Assembly (NCBI RefSeq): GCF_000010165.1
Contig: NC_012491.1
Span: 5,766,001 to 5,830,000 of the forward strand
Direction: 5' to 3'
Source of the DNA: Brevibacillus brevis NBRC 100599
GTDB taxonomy: Bacteria; Bacillota; Bacilli; Brevibacillales; Brevibacillaceae
DNA: 64,000 bases
The first letter of the stretch is position 1. Each line of letters begins with the position of its first letter. Below the pieces are notes generated by a model that was given only the letters and a program-made list of their open reading frames with translations, was not told the origin of the DNA and made no database searches. A program made the translations under genes and the position numbers. This document shows positions 13,718-63,516 of the stretch, piece after piece.

Positions 13718-14476
13718 TTAGGAGAGCCAGCCCTCGATTTTTTCCCATAAGTAAAATCGCACTTCTACTTCAGGAGCAGAGGCAGTTACTTCTTCTGCTT
13801 CTTCTGCTTTTTCTACCTCTGAGGACTCTTCTTCCTCTGCTTTTGTTTGCTCAACGTCCACTCTATTTGTTTCGGAATGATTCCCTACTTCGTTCTCTTC
13901 CAGGGGTAAGACTGCTACTTCCTCGGATGCAGCTTCTGCCGTTGGCTCAGATTCTTCCGGCTTTGGAGTTGGCTCGGCTTTTACAGCGTCGCCATTGGAC
14001 ATGTCAATAAAGCAGAGCGGCGGGAACAGGACACACCACCAGTTTTGACCTTTTGCCTCTCCAATTTGTACACGGACCGCTCGGTAATTACCCGCAGGAT
14101 ACACATAGGAGCCGTACAGCTTCGTTGGAAAAGGAACTTCACCGAAATCGACTACCGCTTTGTATGAAAAACCTCGTTCCTTGACCGTCTTGTCCACGAC
14201 TTGTTGAAGGACAGGCAATTGTGTGTGAATCATTTGCTCTGCTTCCTCCAAAGTCTCGATATCGTCCGCCCACGTATTCATTTGAGCGACAATCGCATCT
14301 CTGACTTCGCGCTTTAACCATTGATCTTGGACAGAATCGCTGTTCGCAATAATGCGCAAGCGAACGGATTCCTGAGGGATCGGCCCATTATCCAACACAT
14401 TGGCCGAAGTAAGCTGCCCCTCCCAGCTCATCATAAGCATAAACAGGCTAAATGCCATTAACAACATCCGTTTCAT
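13718..14476 (-). CDS. spoIIR: Stage II sporulation protein R
   Basis: SpoIIR is made in the forespore and exported to the intermembrane space, where it triggers SpoIIGA to process pro-sigma-E in the mother cell. The start ATG 14476 has GGGAG ten bases upstream and opens a signal sequence of about 25 residues. Family segments are SVRLRIIANSDSVQDQWLKR near 35-55 and NWWCVLFPPLCF near 145. The 252 residues are longer than usual because about 80 residues rich in Glu and Ser, beginning after PTPKPEESEPT, separate the core from the C-terminal VEVRFYLWEKI segment. It sits beside prmC and prfA, as in Bacillus. Forespore (sigma-F) transcription is expected, but I could not assign a promoter. Confidence 0.93.
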   Translation of the reverse strand: MKRMLLMAFSLFMLMMSWEGQLTSANVLDNGPIPQESVRLRIIANSDSVQDQWLKREVRDAIVAQMNTWADDIETLEEAEQMIHTQLPVLQQVVDKTVKERGFSYKAVVDFGEVPFPTKLYGSYVYPAGNYRAVRVQIGEAKGQNWWCVLFPPLCFIDMSNGDAVKAEPTPKPEESEPTAEAASEEVAVLPLEENEVGNHSETNRVDVEQTKAEEEESSEVEKAEEAEEVTASAPEVEVRFYLWEKIEGWLS

Positions 14477-54223: not shown

Positions 54224-54721
54224 TTAGGACAAATTTTGCTTTAATTCTTCGGTAGAATTCTCATACATAGCCTCGTTATTTTCAATCAAAAGCTTTTTCA
54301 GAGCGGCTTTTTCCTTCTCGGATAGATCGGTCAACATAATACGTCTCTTCATGGAGTAATCCATGCGATTCACGTGATCCGCCAAAATTTTGTAGCCCCT
54401 ACGCGCTTCCCGATCGATTTCCATGTAGCACGCAGTCGCCCCTGCATAGTAAGGACCGGCTTCATTGCGATCGACTGTTACCCAAACGAGCCAATAAGGC
54501 TTTCCATTTGGTACTTCTTCTTTATTTGTCGTCCATTTGATGCCCTTTTCAACAGAACTTTTGGCATGTAAGGCACCCATGTCAATGTACGCTTCGTCCC
54601 CATCGATAATGACCGAGGACACAGCATTCAGGTCGAGCACACCTTGACCAAAACCGCCGTGTACATCGGTTTTTCCACTCATGATGGTAAAGCCGCCTTT
54701 TTTATTATCAAAAATATCCAT
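54224..54721 (-). CDS. ywhD: YwhD family protein
   Basis: This 165-residue soluble protein belongs to a Bacillales family without known function. The landmark AYIDMGALHAKSSVEKGI near 43-60 is followed by EVPNGKPYWLVWVTVDR and GPYYAGATACYMEIDRE. GGAGG lies eight bases before the ATG. It is next to pbpG in B. subtilis as well. Here it marks the conserved border of the surface-protein cluster that starts just upstream. Confidence 0.92.
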   Translation of the reverse strand: MDIFDNKKGGFTIMSGKTDVHGGFGQGVLDLNAVSSVIIDGDEAYIDMGALHAKSSVEKGIKWTTNKEEVPNGKPYWLVWVTVDRNEAGPYYAGATACYMEIDREARRGYKILADHVNRMDYSMKRRIMLTDLSEKEKAALKKLLIENNEAMYENSTEELKQNLS

Positions 54722-54831: not shown

Positions 54832-55137
54832 TCATTTTTTGTTTATGAGCTGGATGATTTTTTCGATGCCCCACATGATCAGGATCGTTACGATCGCTGT
54901 ATGGACGGCCATGGCAACCTTCATGACTAACAGTTCACCTAGCATCGTGTCAGAGGGAACAATAAACAGGTAGTACACAAAGCTGATACAAAGAACACTT
55001 AGAAAGATCAACCAGCCTCGAAAGCCTAGCGTGAAGCGAATGAAAGCACCGATGAGCAAACCAATCAAAGGCCCCGCAAACATCAATGAGAATACGAAAG
55101 GACCGAGTATGAACCAAACAATCCAGTTATCATCCAT
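54832..55137 (-). CDS. Small three-helix membrane protein
   Basis: This 101-residue protein has about three hydrophobic helices (about 5-33, 40-62 and 75-97) and a basic C-terminus ENKK-like LINKK. I do not recognise a family. AAAGGGTG precedes the ATG. It begins 26 bases after the lipase-like gene, so it is probably the last gene of the surface cluster operon. The 110 bases to ywhD show no clear terminator. Confidence 0.7.
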   Translation of the reverse strand: MDDNWIVWFILGPFVFSLMFAGPLIGLLIGAFIRFTLGFRGWLIFLSVLCISFVYYLFIVPSDTMLGELLVMKVAMAVHTAIVTILIMWGIEKIIQLINKK

Positions 55138-55163
55138 TGTCTTACACCCTTTGCTTTTGATGA

Positions 55164-57965
55164 TTACACATCATTGGAATCCGTAGTTTGTTCTACCTCA
55201 GCCAGTCCACGCTCATCAAGCACGTAACGTCTACCTGTTTCTTTGTAACGCTCCGAATCATCTGATGAGAAGCGTTTGATCAGAAAGCGCGCTGGCTCCG
55301 CACCCTCTACAGCTACAGGCGGCTGGAATTCCAAGTCTTCACCATCTCGAACATGGATAACAACGATACGATCGTGATACTCAATAGACAGGTCTTCCCG
55401 TACTTCTTTTTTATTGACGTCAAGCGTAAAGGTCTGTCCGGACTTGTGTATCGTCACTTCAGGAAAGCTTTTGTCATCTTGTGCAATGATGTAATACAGG
55501 TAGTCCGCATTTTGATCCGGAGCATTGCGTAACCCTGGTTGTAATTCGTCATCTCCCTGTAGCAATCGCGTTACTTGGTCGATGACCTCTGGTATGGTCG
55601 GCAGCTTGGCGTGTTCGCCTTTCACGTAGTATCGTTTTTTCATATCCTTCTGGGCGTAATTGGCACTCATATACGGAACGGTACCGTCCCCAACGCCAGG
55701 ATCCAGAATCGGGGACCATTCGTTATAAAAAGAATCATAAAAGTAACCGAGCAGTGTTACTTGGCCGGTACCCACGATGGAATACTGTGGAACATTGATC
55801 GTTTTGTTATCCCACTTTTCATGCATCTGGCCGCCATGTCTGACGAGCGGCGCATAGTCGAGGCGAATATTTTTGTCCTTTAAAAAATCGTCATAGGTGT
55901 AGTACTGAATGTTACTCCTTTTCAGGAAGCCAACCGATTCAAAGTATTTTTTAGAGGGTAGTAGCTCGTAAACAGCAGGTGCATAGGAGGAAATCACTTT
56001 CCCTGTTTCCTCATCCAGCCAAGGGATTGAAAAATTGTATCCGTGCTTAAGAGCCTGATATGCCCGTGGAGAGCCAAGGAAGGGTGTGCCCATGTATACG
56101 ACACGATTCACTTTGCGCTGGTAGGACACATTGGATAGAAGTGTTTCTTTTACCAAGAGCCCACCCATGCTATGTGCCACCAAATGCACCTGGTTTGCCC
56201 CACTTGCCTTAAGTGCAGCATCGATTTTCTCTTTTAGAAGCTTGGCATTTTTGGTGCTGCTGTACCGCCAATCGTACGGTAGTGCAAATAAGGTGCGGTG
56301 CTTTTTGTATCCCGCCTTCTCCAGTTCCTTTACCATGCTGTAATACTGTTCAGTAAGTTCTTTTAAAAATGGTGCATAGGAAAGATATTCGATGGCGTAA
56401 AAATCATCCTTTTCCGGGTGGATCGTCGCATCACGGGCGACTGGCTGTACATCTATACTATTTGGCTTGATCGGCTCCAAAGAGAGTAGCCGGCGGTGTT
56501 TAGGATCATTAATACCAATGAGACTATCACCAAGTCCCAACCATATTTCCGATCTCTTTCCATTCTGCTCTACTTCGAGTCGGGATCCACCCACTCCCGG
56601 GATTAAAATAACCGGAATCGTTCTGTCTCCTATATAAAGACTGTACGAGTTAGCAGTAAAACCCGAGCGTTTGCTGGCCATAACCTTGACTATGTAGGTG
56701 CCAGGATAGGCATTGAAGATAATATGTTCATCCGAATTCTTCGCTTTCGCGGAACTAGCGACTACTTTTCCAGCCTCGTCGAGCAGAAATACGTCCATAT
56801 CCATTCCAGTAGGGATATCCTTGAGAGAGACCTCCACAGTAGAAGAGAGCGGAAAGGATAAGCTGTAAAAATCTACATCCGTCTTTGAATGAAGATTTCC
56901 TACGATCTTTCGGTTATATGCATCCAGCTTGTATGCCGCTTCCCTTGTGTCGTTCGGCTCGTATCCATCTGCCTTGCCGCCTCCTCCATGATCCGCGGAA
57001 AAATCAGCTCGCAAGCGGTAGTAGTAATTTTTCGAAAACGAGCCCTGCTTTCCAACTACCTTGATGTAGTACCATTTGTCTTTTTCCAGTGTCAGTCCCT
57101 CGATGAGCTCAGACTCATTTCCATGCTGCTCTGAACGGGCAAGCTCCCCTTCCCCCTCATCATACACATACAGATCGTAGTCTTCGTTTGCCGGAATATC
57201 TGTGAGGGAAATATTCATCTGTCCCTTTGTTGTTCCTCTGATTTTCCAAAAATCCACATCATCTTTGCTGCTAATCTTTCCATGACTGTCCTTTCCATCA
57301 AATAGCCAATCCGATTTGCTGCCCAAAGTATCATTCGGTTCTACCTCAAAGCGAACTTCTCTATTTCGCAGTTCCGCTTCTCCTGGCTTATTCTCGCTTG
57401 AAAAATGCGCATAAAATTCCTCTGCTAGCCGCGAAAGCTCTTCATCGGAGGCATCCTGATCCTGATCCTGTTTGTGTTCTGCCTCTTCTGCCGGAGCCTC
57501 GTTTTTGTTTTTGTCTTCGCCCTCTCGTTCGACCAACGTTAACGGCTCTTCCTGATCGGAACCCATTTCATCCCAAGGCGCCTTTTTGATTTTTATTATT
57601 TCTACGGTCGGCTCTATGTGTTCAGGTAACGATAACTCCCAGCTACGTAACGGCCCTTCCGCATCATCTATGGACATCGTTATCTGGATAGGGCTATCAT
57701 CCATAGGCATGACAGCGAGGGAAATCTGAGACTCCTCGTGAAAAGAACGGATTTTACTGACGCTGCCCTGACTGACAGAAAGCTCGACTTTATCCGGAGT
57801 ACCTGATAATTGTGCCTGAAAACGCACCTCTCCCTCGTCGATCCATGCCCACGCCTCCTCTACGAATATTTCCCGTTCTTTTGCCCAGCCCTGTTCCACT
57901 GTATTTCCCAAGCATAAAGCGAATAGGAGAAGCACACAAAGCAAGCGTCGCGTGATTATTCCCAC
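55164..57965 (-). CDS. Exported lipase/acyltransferase-like hydrolase (LCAT fold) with two PPC domains
   Basis: This is a 933-residue exported protein. A signal peptide occupies about residues 1-30 (GTG 57965 after GAGGGGG, giving VGIITRRLLCVLLLFALCLG); the frame to 58025 lacks a good site. An acidic, low-complexity linker follows near 130-200. Two pre-peptidase C-terminal (PPC) beta domains come next (about 205-325 and 330-450; FEVEPNDTLGS and DGYEPNDTREA). The alpha/beta-hydrolase domain starts at VILIPGVGGSRLEVEQNG, with nucleophile in HLVAHSMGGLL (about residue 605) and an acid region DGTVPYMS near 762. The fold is that of LCAT-like lipases or acyltransferases acting on lipid esters; the substrate is unknown. 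It follows the giant protein gene by 66 bases. Confidence 0.82.
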   Translation of the reverse strand: MGIITRRLLCVLLLFALCLGNTVEQGWAKEREIFVEEAWAWIDEGEVRFQAQLSGTPDKVELSVSQGSVSKIRSFHEESQISLAVMPMDDSPIQITMSIDDAEGPLRSWELSLPEHIEPTVEIIKIKKAPWDEMGSDQEEPLTLVEREGEDKNKNEAPAEEAEHKQDQDQDASDEELSRLAEEFYAHFSSENKPGEAELRNREVRFEVEPNDTLGSKSDWLFDGKDSHGKISSKDDVDFWKIRGTTKGQMNISLTDIPANEDYDLYVYDEGEGELARSEQHGNESELIEGLTLEKDKWYYIKVVGKQGSFSKNYYYRLRADFSADHGGGGKADGYEPNDTREAAYKLDAYNRKIVGNLHSKTDVDFYSLSFPLSSTVEVSLKDIPTGMDMDVFLLDEAGKVVASSAKAKNSDEHIIFNAYPGTYIVKVMASKRSGFTANSYSLYIGDRTIPVILIPGVGGSRLEVEQNGKRSEIWLGLGDSLIGINDPKHRRLLSLEPIKPNSIDVQPVARDATIHPEKDDFYAIEYLSYAPFLKELTEQYYSMVKELEKAGYKKHRTLFALPYDWRYSSTKNAKLLKEKIDAALKASGANQVHLVAHSMGGLLVKETLLSNVSYQRKVNRVVYMGTPFLGSPRAYQALKHGYNFSIPWLDEETGKVISSYAPAVYELLPSKKYFESVGFLKRSNIQYYTYDDFLKDKNIRLDYAPLVRHGGQMHEKWDNKTINVPQYSIVGTGQVTLLGYFYDSFYNEWSPILDPGVGDGTVPYMSANYAQKDMKKRYYVKGEHAKLPTIPEVIDQVTRLLQGDDELQPGLRNAPDQNADYLYYIIAQDDKSFPEVTIHKSGQTFTLDVNKKEVREDLSIEYHDRIVVIHVRDGEDLEFQPPVAVEGAEPARFLIKRFSSDDSERYKETGRRYVLDERGLAEVEQTTDSNDV

Positions 57966-58031
57966 AAAAATCCCCCTCATCCTTTTTCTAGCTTTACAGT
58001 AGAAAAAGACAGAGAGGGGGTGCAAATATTT

Positions 58032-61000
58032 TTACTGCGTCGTATGGTTGCGGATTCCTTGTCGTTCCCATGCATTTGCAATGATACGGAAGGGTAGCGC
58101 ATAATCTTTTATTTCGTGCCCTTGCCCAGAAGCTTTATTTTGATAAGGGAAGCCCTTGTTCACGTCAAAACGAAAGGAAACAGAGTAATAGACTGCGTAG
58201 CTCGCATCCTTTTGGAAGCCATGCTGTTTATCCCCCATCAAAGGCGTATCTACACCCACTTCACGAGCTCCTAGCTTGGAAGCGGAATAGGAAGGGCCTC
58301 TCCATAGCTGAGGACTCGCTTGTTGCAGGGCTAACAACGACTGTAACGGCGTTTGGCGTAAGCCTGTTTCTGAAATCCATGCCCGCGCAGCTGTCACGAC
58401 AGGAAACTGATTACTCACGGGATGGCGGTGTCGAGCCTGTAGCTCCACTTGTGTCAAGATGCGCTCTCCCGCGTAGTAATCATTTGGCTGGCTGTTTGGA
58501 TATCGGTCTCTGGTATGATACGCTTCCCATTCGGCCGTATGGCGAATCGAGCCTGTTGCATTCGGCTCAAAGACTTCAAAGGAGCGCTCTCCCCCTTTTA
58601 CCGTAATGGTATAGCGTCCTGCCATCGTTTTGGAGAGGTTCCGAGGCTCACACACCTCTTCATCTTCGTCGTTCATAGCGCAGCTCTCGTAGGACAGTTC
58701 AAAATCGACCTGATAATCCATCACGATGACAAAGCCGTTGATTTCAGCCTTGTATTTTTGCGATTGGAGTACTTGGCGCCAAGTCGTCTGTGTTGGGACC
58801 GTGGTTCCTGTATACACGACCTCTGAGCCTGTAGATGCACTGCTTACCTGCCATTGCATCGGGGCTCCCGGGCCTGTCAGCTTTAAATCAAGCTGTGGTG
58901 GCGTATAAACCGCCATGCTCTTGGCATCTGAAATCCACCCCGGATTGGCAGTGACAGTTACGTTTTTGATCGTGTCCCCGCTGACTGAACTCTCCAATTG
59001 CGCTTTAAATTGCGTGATTTTTTGATTGATCTCCTGTTCTGTTTTTTGGAAGCCTTCGTTTATTTTCGTCTGATCAATGACCACGCGAATCGTCGCAGGC
59101 TCACGTTCCCACACGCCATCTGCATGTAGCGGCAGTTTTTGTAGCTGTCTACCATCACTGTCATAAATCTCTAACCCAATTTCACCGCCATCAAAATCTC
59201 CTCCACCACCAGGCGGCTCCGGAACTTCTCCACCGACAATTTTCACTGGCCAAGCCGCACGATTGTCTGTCCAGATCGTCTCGTTTTCCGGCATGGATTT
59301 CCCAGGGTTGATATGGGCAATAAAATCCTCGGATTTTTGCGGATACTTCGTCGGAATCGTGATCTTACGCACCTCACCCGGCTTGAATTCATTCACGTCC
59401 AAGCGAGTTTCCTTTTCTGAGCTCGCCCAGCGAACAGCCAATTTCGTATCATGCGTTACTTTCCCGGCATTCTTCACGCTGAATGTAATCGTCGCATCGG
59501 TTCCTGCGGCTTGAGGGCTCTTCGGGTCAATTTGAAAGCTCGATTTCACAATCAGTAAATTCTCTCCATCCGGTTTTGGAACGCCTTTGCCGATTTGCAC
59601 AAAAAAATGACCGTCGCAGCCGTCACTCTGGGTCGAATAAAATTGCACCTTGTACAGTCCTTCTAAAAGAAGACCATTTTCGTCTCTCGGGAAATACACC
59701 CAGTGGCTATTTGTGGAGGTATTTGAGCTATCGAGTGCCTTTCCGTTTCGCTTTCTTTCCCAGGAGCCAGACGCAGGATCAAACCACCTCATCGAAAAGT
59801 GACTATCATCCGACAAAAACATCCGAAACCGATACTTGTCTGGAATCTCCTCTGCTGCCATTTCAATGGTTTCACCACGTTGAATATCCTTGCTCCACTT
59901 TTGGTTGTTTCGATCGATTTCTACTGACGCGAGAATATCCCAGCATTTTTGGTCGGATTCAATGGTGAATCGCACCTCACCCGTGCAGCCCGTCTCGGAC
60001 TCGAACAGCAGTACGATTTCATCGCCAACATCTACGCTTGCCGGCAACATGAGCCTGAATCGCTCGTCCACTGCAAGCTTGTCGGTTAACGCTGTTTTTC
60101 CTTCAGGGCTCTTCCAATACCAAGTACCAGATACCTTTGAGGAAAACGATAGATTAGTATCGTATTGATCTCCAGCCTTCGAAAAATACTTGATGTATAC
60201 GGGGTCTTTCAATGTAAATCCTGAGCTGACCGATCCATTCATGCCTTCACCTTCAGGAGAAAATGGCAGAGGTGGCTCGCTATGTACTAAAAATGAAACC
60301 TTTTTTTGATCAGCGATCGAGCAGGAAGCATCTTTTACCACAATCGTTATTTCCCAATTGCATTCAGGTCGCTCCCTCCACTTTGTCCCATCGAGGTTTA
60401 GCTTTAGTTTGTACGTTTTTCCTCGCTCGAATGGAAAATAGTACGGGTTATAAACATTTCCGAACGGAAGCTTTAAACTGGAGGAATCATAGGGTCCCCA
60501 TCTGCCATTGTCATTTTCCCTGACTGGCAAGGTATAAGTTTTTCCGTTTGGAAGGGATACATCCCACTTGAGCGATGCCTCCGAGCTATCTCCGTATTTG
60601 GTTGTGTATTTAGCCCGGAACGTAAGCGTATCGAACGGCATAATCTCAATGGTTTGACCGTTTCTTACTGCAGATGCCGACAGCGTAACGATGGGGCATG
60701 AGTCTTCGCCATCTGGCGACTCCACTCTAAAATATTTCTCCCAGCACTCTGTTCCATCATCACTGGTGTAGACGACTTTTACCCGTCCAGAGCTACCGAT
60801 GCTTCCTGTCCCGACTTTCCTGTTGCCATTCGCTCCAGGCTTCATGTCATAACCATTCATCGTGTATTTTCCTGGTTTATTGGCAGAGAGAGTGATATCT
60901 GCATTTTTTTCGACAGCAATATCCGAGCCGCCGCTGGCAACAGCATTGTGGTCTTTAATATCCTTGTCGCCAACGACTTGAATGTTCAGTTTGGTTTTTG

Positions 61001-62021
61001 TTGACCCGATTGAACATGCTGGACCTGGATCAGGCTTTTCGGGATCAGGCTTTTCCGGTGAGGTTACATCACCCACTGTGAATAGTGCTGTATAAGGTGT
61101 CGAAACGCTTATGCTGCTTGATCCTTGGCGGCTTCTTTGATGCAGGTCAGTGATGGTTAGCGATATTTCATACAGGCCTGGCTCGGTAGGCTTATAGTCG
61201 GTATTTTTAAAGGTCCACTTGTAGCCTGGGGGACTGCTTGTCTCGTTTACTTTGGGAACGGCAGTGCTTGGATCGTTGAATTTTTGATTAGACAAGATGC
61301 TCTTGTATCCACGTCCTGTTGTCTTGTTGATCACGCTTAAAGACCATACAAAAATGCCGCGGTCATAGTAAGAAAAGTCCGTGGCATTTGCATGGATCTC
61401 AACTGTTTCGTTGAGGTTGTATTTTGTTTTGTTGGTGGTTATGCTGCCGCTGGGTTGTGGGGTGGTTCGGAAGTGGCCTACCGAGATGTACCCGCCTTTG
61501 CCGTCTGGGACGAGGTTGTCTCCTTTGGTGTAGCCTGCGCCGCCTGAGGCGGAGGCTAGTTCTGCGAGGTTGTAGGCTTGGTACTCTTTGAAATCTCTTA
61601 TAGTACTACTAGAAACAGTTTTACTATAAACATTAGCAGTTCCCCCCAAGATATAATTGGGATTTCCACCAAACCGTTTGATCCAGTAGTTTGTTTCATT
61701 TTCGTCTACGAAGTACCATCCTCTGTCTGCTTTTTTGTTGATATCAGCGAATCCTAGTACTCTATTTCCATCAATGACCCTATCTACTTCAATTTGTGAT
61801 ACTGTTGCACCGAGTTCTCCATCTATTCCTGAGATCGCAAGAATGTCAAACTGATTTTTCGGTGCAAGCTCTTTTTGTGAATCTACAGTAGCAACACCAA
61901 TGCCGTGGTAGTTTGGTGTTGCACCTGCAAAATTTGAATAAATAGTAAGTAGCCCGCTTAAGAGACAAAAGGAGAGCACAGAAAAAATTAATTTCCTGTG
62001 CTTCATTATAAGTTTTATCAT
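58032..62021 (-). CDS. Giant exported multi-domain protein with paired cysteines
   Basis: This is a 1329-residue exported protein with a signal peptide near 1-34 ending FAGA. Residues 35-190 are a unique domain. A Pro/Asp/Glu-rich linker (SPEKPDPEKPDPGPA) leads to four Ig-like repeats of 110-125 residues, each holding two cysteines: 336/426, 442/554, 567/679, 693/802. A CARDB-like domain covers 823-930, a Gly-rich linker follows, and a fifth pair, 1114/1124, lies near the C-terminus. There is no SLH or LPXTG anchor. The start overlaps the SLH gene stop by one base (TAATG) with AAGGG nine bases upstream, so translation is coupled. No family is recognised. G+C drops sharply in its first 440 bases (see findings). 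Confidence 0.8.
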   Translation of the reverse strand: MIKLIMKHRKLIFSVLSFCLLSGLLTIYSNFAGATPNYHGIGVATVDSQKELAPKNQFDILAISGIDGELGATVSQIEVDRVIDGNRVLGFADINKKADRGWYFVDENETNYWIKRFGGNPNYILGGTANVYSKTVSSSTIRDFKEYQAYNLAELASASGGAGYTKGDNLVPDGKGGYISVGHFRTTPQPSGSITTNKTKYNLNETVEIHANATDFSYYDRGIFVWSLSVINKTTGRGYKSILSNQKFNDPSTAVPKVNETSSPPGYKWTFKNTDYKPTEPGLYEISLTITDLHQRSRQGSSSISVSTPYTALFTVGDVTSPEKPDPEKPDPGPACSIGSTKTKLNIQVVGDKDIKDHNAVASGGSDIAVEKNADITLSANKPGKYTMNGYDMKPGANGNRKVGTGSIGSSGRVKVVYTSDDGTECWEKYFRVESPDGEDSCPIVTLSASAVRNGQTIEIMPFDTLTFRAKYTTKYGDSSEASLKWDVSLPNGKTYTLPVRENDNGRWGPYDSSSLKLPFGNVYNPYYFPFERGKTYKLKLNLDGTKWRERPECNWEITIVVKDASCSIADQKKVSFLVHSEPPLPFSPEGEGMNGSVSSGFTLKDPVYIKYFSKAGDQYDTNLSFSSKVSGTWYWKSPEGKTALTDKLAVDERFRLMLPASVDVGDEIVLLFESETGCTGEVRFTIESDQKCWDILASVEIDRNNQKWSKDIQRGETIEMAAEEIPDKYRFRMFLSDDSHFSMRWFDPASGSWERKRNGKALDSSNTSTNSHWVYFPRDENGLLLEGLYKVQFYSTQSDGCDGHFFVQIGKGVPKPDGENLLIVKSSFQIDPKSPQAAGTDATITFSVKNAGKVTHDTKLAVRWASSEKETRLDVNEFKPGEVRKITIPTKYPQKSEDFIAHINPGKSMPENETIWTDNRAAWPVKIVGGEVPEPPGGGGDFDGGEIGLEIYDSDGRQLQKLPLHADGVWEREPATIRVVIDQTKINEGFQKTEQEINQKITQFKAQLESSVSGDTIKNVTVTANPGWISDAKSMAVYTPPQLDLKLTGPGAPMQWQVSSASTGSEVVYTGTTVPTQTTWRQVLQSQKYKAEINGFVIVMDYQVDFELSYESCAMNDEDEEVCEPRNLSKTMAGRYTITVKGGERSFEVFEPNATGSIRHTAEWEAYHTRDRYPNSQPNDYYAGERILTQVELQARHRHPVSNQFPVVTAARAWISETGLRQTPLQSLLALQQASPQLWRGPSYSASKLGAREVGVDTPLMGDKQHGFQKDASYAVYYSVSFRFDVNKGFPYQNKASGQGHEIKDYALPFRIIANAWERQGIRNHTTQ

Positions 62022-62920
62022 TATTTTGTACCCTTCACTTTATAAAATTTCCGCGTGTTATCAACTCTCTCAAAAGTAGGTAATTTGGGATACATAAAAG
62101 CACCAGCATCCGTTGAATCGTTATTATTTATTATTACTAAAGACATATAGTCTGCACCGTTTATTGAAATACTGAAGGATTCATTATTTAAAAAACCTTC
62201 TTTAACATTTTGTTTTGAGACAAACATCGCCCTTATCATAAAATCACCATCACCCTTAGGCACCTTCCCACTAATCTTCCCATTCACAACCTTCAAGCTC
62301 TTATGAAACTCATCCGCATATTTCGCCCCTTGCTCAAGCTGCCATTTATCCTTCCACAAATAACGCAAAATTTCCGCCGCTTCCCCTCGCGTCACAGGCA
62401 AATCCTCACGAAATTTAGGCTGACCACTAGGTGCTGGCTTCATCCATCCCCACGTGATAAGCGCCCCAGTATTGGTTAAATTGGGATTCTTTTCACCCCG
62501 AATCGGCTTCCACGCTGCATACACCAGCGCTGCCGTTTCTTCCTTCGTCAACAGCCTGTTCGGCTCTACCTTCACCCCCGCCAAAATCCCCGCCTTCTGC
62601 GCCTGCTCATAGCTCACCTTCGCCCAATGCCCTACCGGGAGCTCCGGAACGGGGGCTACCTCCTTCAATCCGCGAATCGCTCCTAAACTCGCGATAAACT
62701 GCCCTTGCGTGATTTGACTATTCGGATAAAAGTTCCCCTTGCTATCCAGCCATAAGTATTTCTTCTGTACACCGAAATCAATGGCTGCCTTTGCTGTATG
62801 TGAAGCGTAATCGTTCGCTGACGCAGCAGCCTGTACGGTTTGACTATTAGCTACTCCAGTAAGCCCTGCCACTGCGAGAACAGCTGCTAGTAGGTATGAC
62901 ATGATTGCACGTTTGTTCAT
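62021..62920 (-). CDS. S-layer-homology protein with a small unique C-terminal domain
   Basis: This is a 299-residue exported protein. The signal peptide is near 1-33 (MNKRAIMSYLLAAVLAVAGL), ending VQAAASA. Residues 35-210 hold three SLH-like repeats (YPNSQITQGQFIASLGAIRG; GILAGVKVEPNRLLTKEET; FREDLPVTRGEAAEILRYL), partly degenerate. Residues 215-299 are a beta-rich C-terminal domain without cysteine. ATG 62920 follows GAGGGGGG by seven bases; the frame to 62965 overlaps the thioredoxin gene. It probably anchors its neighbours' products to the cell-wall polymer. It is coupled to the giant protein gene (TAATG). Confidence 0.83.
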   Translation of the reverse strand: MNKRAIMSYLLAAVLAVAGLTGVANSQTVQAAASANDYASHTAKAAIDFGVQKKYLWLDSKGNFYPNSQITQGQFIASLGAIRGLKEVAPVPELPVGHWAKVSYEQAQKAGILAGVKVEPNRLLTKEETAALVYAAWKPIRGEKNPNLTNTGALITWGWMKPAPSGQPKFREDLPVTRGEAAEILRYLWKDKWQLEQGAKYADEFHKSLKVVNGKISGKVPKGDGDFMIRAMFVSKQNVKEGFLNNESFSISINGADYMSLVIINNNDSTDAGAFMYPKLPTFERVDNTRKFYKVKGTK

Positions 62921-62957
62921 GGAATGACCCCCCTCTTTACTGGACATTTTACCTATA

Positions 62958-63347
62958 TTATCCATTTTTAGAAAGAGTCTGATTTAGGTTCCTTTGCAAA
63001 AAGCTTCGCAACGTATTCTCGGGCACCGCCCCTTCCAGCTTGTCGATCACCTTACCTTGTTCGACGACAAAAACAGTGGGGGTTGCCTCTGCCCCGAGGC
63101 GCGACGCTTCATCTAGCTCTTTCTGCTCATGGATATCCAGTCGTTGGATCATTTCAGGTGGATACTCCTTCACGACTTTCTCAAATGTCGGGCCGAACTC
63201 CGTACAATATCCGCAGCTATCACTATAGACGTACACCACTTTTACTTCTTCTTGTGCACTGGCTGTACCCCACCACGCACTTATACCGACGGCAAGCATA
63301 ACAACACCGAGCAGGATCCACAGCCACCATTGCTTGCTTCTACTCAC
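62958..63347 (-). CDS. Membrane-anchored thioredoxin-like protein
   Basis: This is a 129-residue protein. One N-terminal transmembrane helix (about 6-28, WWLWILLGVVMLAVGISAWW) places a thioredoxin fold outside the membrane. The redox motif CGYC is at about residues 45-48 within YVYSDSCGYCTEFGPTFEK, and the cis-proline lies in EATPTVFVV near 90, so the active site is complete. An ATG at 63353 sits directly on its ribosome-binding sequence; GTG 63347 with GGGAG six bases upstream is better. It is the first gene of the surface cluster, 37 bases before the SLH gene. I infer thiol-disulfide exchange on the cysteine-paired giant protein. Confidence 0.85.
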   Translation of the reverse strand: MSRSKQWWLWILLGVVMLAVGISAWWGTASAQEEVKVVYVYSDSCGYCTEFGPTFEKVVKEYPPEMIQRLDIHEQKELDEASRLGAEATPTVFVVEQGKVIDKLEGAVPENTLRSFLQRNLNQTLSKNG

Positions 63348-63393
63348 GTCCATCTCCCTTTCGCGAATCAGAATGTTTCATAACGTATGCACT

Positions 63394-63436: not shown

Positions 63437-63516
63437 AAAAAAAGCCAGCCCCATTGGACTGGCTGACATGTATAAAAAAAAAAAGACGTACCACAACTCT
63501 TGCAAGTTCGTACGCC
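63437..63516 (-). terminator. Tandem terminators after ywgA
   Basis: The first hairpin (63484-63516, GGCGTACGAACT...AGTTGTGGTACGTC) is followed on the minus strand by 11 T. The second (AGCCAG/CTGGCT, about 63443-63464) is followed by seven T. They insulate the surface cluster from ywgA. Confidence 0.88.

Follow-up and report, generated by a model that had tools for sequence, protein, structure and literature searches.

Several described systems resemble parts of the locus that we analyse here. The Tad/Flp pilus of Myxococcus has tip complexes (KilLMN) with many predicted intramolecular disulfides (PMC12075869). In Actinomyces, pilus folding depends on MdbA (PMC5478893), and in Bacillus subtilis, a thioester adhesin encoded by pLS20 acts in conjugation (PMC8092201). 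Tad clusters also lie beside variants of the type VII secretion system in Paenibacillus (PMC11217815). The outer adhesive parts of Tad-like pili in monoderm bacteria are poorly known, and we describe a concrete candidate: a family of giant exported proteins that is conserved in nearly all Brevibacillaceae and that occurs both on the chromosome and on a sequenced plasmid carrying conjugation genes. We analysed a 64,000-nucleotide window from Brevibacillus brevis NBRC 100599 (G000:C1:5766001-5830000 of a single-contig genome of 6,296,436 bases; G and L numbers are our handles for genomes and loci). Reading the open reading frames (ORFs) gives a set of five minus-strand genes. In order of transcription, they are:

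62958..63353, minus strand: membrane-anchored thioredoxin-fold protein, 131 amino acids (Pfam Thioredoxin, 2.3e-12; CGYC at residues 47-50; Thr-cisPro-Thr loop at residues 91-93)
62021..62965, minus strand: exported SLH-domain protein, 314 amino acids, zero cysteine (Pfam SLH, 1.1e-5)
58032..62021, minus strand: giant exported protein with multiple immunoglobulin-like (Ig) domains, 1329 amino acids, signal peptide, ten mature cysteines (sequence and fold model)
55164..58025, minus strand: exported LCAT-fold hydrolase with two PPC domains (Pfam LCAT, PF02450, 4.9e-69)
54832..55137, minus strand: small membrane protein, 101 amino acids, without a family (ORF reading; Pfam blank)

An earlier note on this DNA had described the same five same-strand genes in the same order, with the CGYC thioredoxin and ten mature cysteines in the giant, and the ORFs and the sequence confirm all of this. 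What it missed is that giants are recurrently linked to Tad-pilus clusters.

We propose that the cluster encodes a wall-docked rod or adhesin of multiple Ig domains that functions together with a Tad-like pilus of Brevibacillus. This proposal comes from sequence comparisons and fold models, and we give it a probability of roughly 0.5. Each Ig repeat would be stapled by one internal disulfide, and the thioredoxin would help to form or reshuffle these disulfides outside the membrane. The SLH protein would keep the giant docked to the wall. The giant, in turn, would cooperate with the Tad-like pilus and bind other cells or surfaces, serving as an adhesin on the outside, a tip or a collar. In the chromosomal version, the LCAT enzyme would be a co-encoded accessory. 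A broader claim, which we consider rather unlikely, is that the giants form a new class of Tad partner in monoderms: an SLH-docked giant Ig-array adhesin, folded by a subfamily-specific thioredoxin, that would serve chromosomal pili for contact and conjugative plasmids for mating.

The locus resembles KilLMN in having putative modular surface parts of a Tad system, several paralogous clusters in one genome, and predicted disulfides. But KilLMN, which come from a diderm, are minor pilins with the pilin fold, while the giant, which comes from a monoderm, lacks a pilin helix and has an SLH partner and an ordinary signal peptide. Like PrgB of pCF10 and the pLS20 adhesin, the giant is a putative long surface adhesin, and one copy lies on a plasmid with conjugation genes. 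Unlike in those adhesins, we did not recognise a sortase motif or a thioester domain in the giant; its docking to the wall seemingly relies on a separate SLH protein, and it is chromosomal and core in the family. MdbA is a membrane thiol oxidoreductase that serves disulfide-bearing surface or pilus proteins, and we predict a similar role for the thioredoxin. However, MdbA is a general oxidoreductase of Actinobacteria, while the thioredoxin is small, locus-specific, thioredoxin-like, and missing where the giant has more cysteines. Finally, the SLH partner beside the giant recalls the SLH-domain proteins of S-layers and S-layer-associated proteins, but the giant has no SLH match of its own.

The main evidence for a link to pili comes from giants that lie outside the conserved chromosomal locus. 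There are five of these, either full-length or cut by a contig: L125 (on plasmid pBbsI), L126, L127, L128/L137, and L129 (cut by the contig end). We left degenerate or short fragments (L069, L070, and others) out of this count. All five relocated giants are in clusters that encode SAF/CpaB-like, TadZ-like, TadA, TadB, and TadC-like proteins along with two to three pilin-like proteins. (By pilin-like, we mean the position, the size, and an N-terminal hydrophobic segment; these proteins have no Pfam match.) TadA matches T2SSE in the four clusters that were scanned, with E values from 3e-30 (L125) to 0.0035. The relocated Tad clusters match, gene by gene, a chromosomal cluster of B. brevis at about 161-168 kb (L163), with E values of 1e-33 to 1e-87 for TadA and 1e-6 to 1e-36 for the pilin-like proteins. 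In three of the clusters (L126, L127, and L129), the pilin-like genes are followed, on their own strand, by those of the giant and its partners. The relocated giants fall in different parts of the family tree, so the association with Tad is either recurrent or ancient.

Several observations weigh against our proposal. The window has no adjacent Tad gene; on the circular chromosome, about 0.6 Mb separates the locus (5.82 Mb) from the Tad cluster (161-168 kb). The giant is not itself a pilin, as it lacks a type III prepilin leader; it also has no hydrophobic pilin helix, and its N-terminus is an ordinary cleavable signal peptide (ending ...SNFAGA). The structural matches of the giant, described below, are generic, and those with Z under about 8 might be due to chance. 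Across the 39 genomes from the family, the giant is present in 37 and locus-type TadA in 36. In favour of the link, both genomes without the giant (G029 and G061) also lack locus-type TadA, and the naive chance that both absences would coincide is 3/741 (0.004). However, the three genomes without Tad belong to one genus, so there are few independent events and this co-occurrence is weak. Also, G062 has the giant but not locus-type TadA.

B. brevis has more than one Tad-like set. L163 (G000:C1:150000-169900) contains two different sets side by side, with the second T2SSE protein at L163:3107-4621 (E = 8.9e-32), and a third set, which includes a Flp-like pilin, is near 592 kb (L164). In G033, an RHS-repeat protein (L137:1-4175; Pfam, 2e-23) is encoded downstream of the relocated Tad/giant island.

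The giant is found in 26/26 genomes from the same genus and in 11 of the 13 other genomes from the family. Among 399 genomes from the class, the C-terminal region of the giant was found only in this family, except for one weak match in G054 (E = 6.9e-5). We retain the G054 protein as a probable distant relative because it aligns over a conserved stretch and its gene has an SLH neighbour. It is an exported protein of 1736 amino acids from another family of Bacilli (L161:13247-19723) with a giant-like C-terminal stretch (E = 1.5e-4) and six cysteines; its gene directly adjoins that of an SLH-domain protein, and there are no Tad genes nearby.

Within the genus, the gene order is an upstream gene, trx, the SLH gene, the giant gene, the LCAT gene, (the small gene), ywhD, penicillin-binding protein, and spermidine synthase. 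(In L049, the locus is cut by a contig end ahead of the SLH gene and trx.) The small membrane protein is less regularly kept and was not detected in L044, L046, L053, or L054. The SLH gene adjoins the giant gene in all complete loci from the genus, which supports this part of the reading in the earlier note. We found no anchor in the giant itself (Pfam finds no SLH domain), and the SLH protein is probably its cell-wall anchor, acting in trans. In other genera, the giant is at the same chromosomal place, usually with the LCAT gene, but trx is gone. There, the partner of the giant is either an SLH protein or a protein with a Cu_amine_oxidN1 domain (2.6e-37 in L057), and it is often preceded by a single-span membrane protein that has no Pfam match but whose sequence (DLEWA...ITQAEFLKM) we judged to be SLH-like by eye. 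At L057:13194-14617 and L127:8112-9543, the Cu_amine_oxidN1-domain protein and the SLH-like single-span protein take the place of the SLH partner and apparently form an alternative pair for anchoring the same giant. We consider the conserved, family-specific surface system to be real.

The mature cysteines of the giant are at residues 336, 426, 442, 554, 567, 679, 693, 802, 1114, and 1124, and C19 is within the signal peptide. The earlier note gave these ten positions correctly, with two in each Ig-like repeat plus 1114/1124. Based on cysteine conservation and strand layout, the repeats are as follows, along with the C-terminal region:

60744..61016, minus strand: putatively cysteine-paired Ig-like repeat 1 (C336-C426) of the giant
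60360..60698, minus strand: putatively cysteine-paired Ig-like repeat 2 (C442-C554)
59985..60323, minus strand: putatively cysteine-paired Ig-like repeat 3 (C567-C679)
59616..59945, minus strand: putatively cysteine-paired Ig-like repeat 4 (C693-C802)
58035..59225, minus strand: best-conserved C-terminal region of the giant, residues 933-1329, with cysteine pair 1114/1124 (weak fold likeness to streptococcal AgI/II C domains)

All ten cysteines are invariant in the giants from the genus, even where identity falls to about 45-48%, so the pairs are conserved in homologues as the idea of a stapled giant requires. The cysteine columns are among the few invariant columns of an alignment whose mean identity is 33%, and the gene order is kept across the genus, so both the cysteine pattern and the order are beyond chance. 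Giants from other genera have 14-20 cysteines and have additional repeats, each of which contributes one pair. The number of mature cysteines (counted beyond residue 60) is even in 36 of 39 homologues; the other three have one additional cysteine in common, near residue 176-181. Together with the signal peptide, these conserved predicted pairs support the view that the giant is exported and cysteine-paired.

In an AlphaFold2 model of residues 30-830, each repeat has its first cysteine ahead of strand A and its second immediately before the final strand, G. (In repeat 1, the strand A region is modelled with low confidence.) In an Ig-type fold, the start of strand A and the start of strand G sit at the same end, so pairing inside each repeat is likeliest. 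It is likely that each Ig repeat has one disulfide, from the start of strand A to the start of strand G. We also considered pairing between repeats (such as C426-C442), but this seems unlikely because the whole of strand G intervenes.

The giant has no family in Pfam, NCBIfam, or PHROGs, aside from a sub-threshold match to CARDB in Pfam. Searching the sequences in PDB with two giant profiles gave nothing useful, and the C-terminal region had no sequence match at E of 1. The giant did not match any phage record; pBbsI was the only plasmid in PLSDB that matched it; and a search of the papers available to us did not find any that describes it. We folded the giant with AlphaFold2 as two pieces (mean predicted local distance difference test scores of 82 and 80), and both pieces are beta-sandwich arrays of the Ig or fibronectin type III-like kind. 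Residues 188-317 resemble the biofilm scaffold RbmA (Z = 8.1, root-mean-square deviation [rmsd] 2.3, 103 residues), and for the CARDB-like region the likeness is to transglutaminase beta domains (Z = 8.8, rmsd 2.6, 93 residues). The C-terminal region weakly resembles the C domains of AgI/II (VIA, Z = 7.8, rmsd 4.8, 211 residues) and the Ig domains of PrgB (Z = 7.6, rmsd 17.6, 295 residues), but matches with Z < 8 may be due to chance. All that these likenesses support is a protein of the surface-adhesin type. Foldseek matches of the whole model (complement, macroglobulin, and Ig receptors) are to generic beta-sandwich arrays, and we do not draw any kinship from them.

The thioredoxin has the features of a Dsb-type extracytoplasmic thiol oxidoreductase: a thioredoxin fold with CxxC, a cis-Pro loop, and a predicted outward-facing membrane anchor, for which we read an N-terminal hydrophobic segment from the sequence. 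In an alignment of the locus-type thioredoxins, both active-site cysteines are kept in 27/27 rows and TPT in 26/27, and the dipeptide within CxxC varies (GY, VY, RY, PY, or GF). There are 28 strong matches (E ≤ 1e-22) across the family genomes, and all of them go with giants of one clade. In a tree of 39 giants, this clade holds 25 of the 26 core copies as well as two relocated ones, L067 on a plasmid and L056 in another genus, although these two are long branches whose exact positions are unsure. In G023, the giant locus is at a contig end and the thioredoxin lies roughly 1 kb from one end of another contig, which is what a locus split between contigs should look like. The genomes from other genera do not contain such a thioredoxin anywhere, except for G033, whose copy is the relocated one. 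In G007, the thioredoxin appears as two overlapping ORFs (L055, around 13778-14279), which match only residues 4-91 of the thioredoxin in the window; it may be frameshifted, or this may be an assembly error.

Because the thioredoxin travels with one subfamily of giants, a functional tie between the two is supported. But a thioredoxin of this type is not generally required by giants, as the sister subfamily lacks it despite having more cysteines. The suggestion that the membrane thioredoxin is dedicated to its neighbour, and is part of orthologous clusters, therefore stands in part. It holds for 26/26 genomes of the genus and for two relocated copies, but the thioredoxin is absent from the clusters that we examined in other genera. 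A single family of giants, with and without its own thioredoxin, offers a natural comparison for asking why certain exported proteins come with an oxidoreductase of their own.

The thioredoxin might also reduce or isomerise disulfides instead of oxidising, which would be compatible with any overall model; we consider this somewhat unlikely. The combination of CGYC with Thr-cisPro is the pattern of DsbC-type isomerases, and CGYC and TPT are conserved. The locus does not encode a DsbB/BdbC partner. The only DsbB-family match in the genome is a BdbC homologue at 2.05 Mb, next to a CEHC thioredoxin that could account for oxidation, and there is one CcdA/DsbD_TM protein at 3.41 Mb. On the other hand, the thioredoxin has no dimerisation domain, and the CxxC dipeptide varies and does not fix the redox role.

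The giant could be a structural protein of the wall or S-layer that is unrelated to pili, with the linkage to Tad reflecting joint carriage on mobile islands. The constant presence of the SLH partner within the genus fits this explanation, as do the distant relative in G054, which adjoins an SLH gene without a nearby Tad gene, and the Tad-less G062. Yet 5/5 substantial relocated copies are linked to Tad and are near pilin-like genes, in varied backgrounds, and both of the giant-less genomes lack Tad. We view a purely structural role as unlikely.

We also considered whether the giant arose as a recipient-binding adhesin of conjugative elements with a Tad-like pilus, in which case the chromosomal copy would have been domesticated for cell-cell contact. 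Plasmid pBbsI (NZ_CP134052.1) has, on one strand, relaxase-like and VirD4-like genes, the Tad cluster, and the genes for the pilin-like proteins, the thioredoxin, the SLH protein, and the giant. Elsewhere, it encodes TraC, TrbL, an M23 peptidase, a topoisomerase, and an A24 prepilin-type peptidase. Similarly, L128/L137 has a VirD4/TraG-like ATPase beside the Tad genes, and L066 is near a MobA/MobL relaxase. The weak fold likeness to PrgB, a conjugation adhesin, points the same way. But the copy on the chromosome is the one with the widest distribution and the best-kept synteny; pBbsI is typed as non-mobilizable in PLSDB, even though genes for VirD4, TraC, and TrbL are annotated; and we did not recognise transfer genes in the stretches that we read around L126 and L129. 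This origin seems distinctly unlikely.

The thin pilus of R64 is a type IV-like pilus that aids mating. The predicted pilus cluster of pBbsI, beside the genes of a type IV secretion system, recalls it. Because VirB4 is absent from pBbsI, we asked if Tad might replace the type IV secretion system, but we rejected this idea because TraC and TrbL genes are annotated. A search of G001 with the AAA_10 profile from Pfam was negative, which shows only that this profile misses this TraC. pBbsI (L166/L170) also carries a Fic/VbhA-type pair and restriction-modification genes.

The model in the earlier note, in which the five genes make an S-layer-anchored complex with disulfides installed by the thioredoxin and an LCAT-type lipase or esterase as the working part, appears quite improbable: co-orientation and order are conserved in the genus, the LCAT catalytic residues (Ser619/Asp780/His805, a triad assigned by motif) are intact in 31/31 alignment rows, and the LCAT gene is kept beside the giant in several other genera (L057-L059, L062, and L064), but no LCAT homologue was detected beside any of the relocated giants (L056, L065-L067) or in L060 or L061, and other genera lack the thioredoxin even though their giants have more cysteines. 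An effector role for the LCAT enzyme is thus not supported. As it is missing beside every relocated giant, we take it to be an accessory of the chromosomal locus only. Compared with a lipid-acting effector complex, a Tad-linked adhesin is the better reading, and we give it about even odds.

Some gene boundaries are less certain. The thioredoxin gene is present as the earlier note described, but its ORF extends to 63353, not to 63347. Whether it overlaps the SLH gene hinges on the choice of start codon: close relatives have about 36 bp between the two genes, and the true start of the SLH protein may be the ATG at codon 16. The LCAT gene is listed with a TTG start; an ATG further into the gene is the likelier one. 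The 5' border of the cluster is likely marked by this hairpin:

63443..63464, minus strand: terminator-like hairpin of the gene upstream of trx (consensus match only)

The gene upstream of trx encodes a protein of at least 150 amino acids and continues beyond the edge of the window. Downstream of the cluster are ywhD (54224-54721, from Pfam) and then genes for a penicillin-binding protein and a spermidine synthase-like protein, which we assigned by reading the ORFs. Lastly, there are degenerate or short fragments of giant genes at L131:11222-12207 (G009:C6), in G013:C8, in G023:C67, and at L070 (G008:C2), which suggests that additional copies have been repeatedly gained and have decayed.

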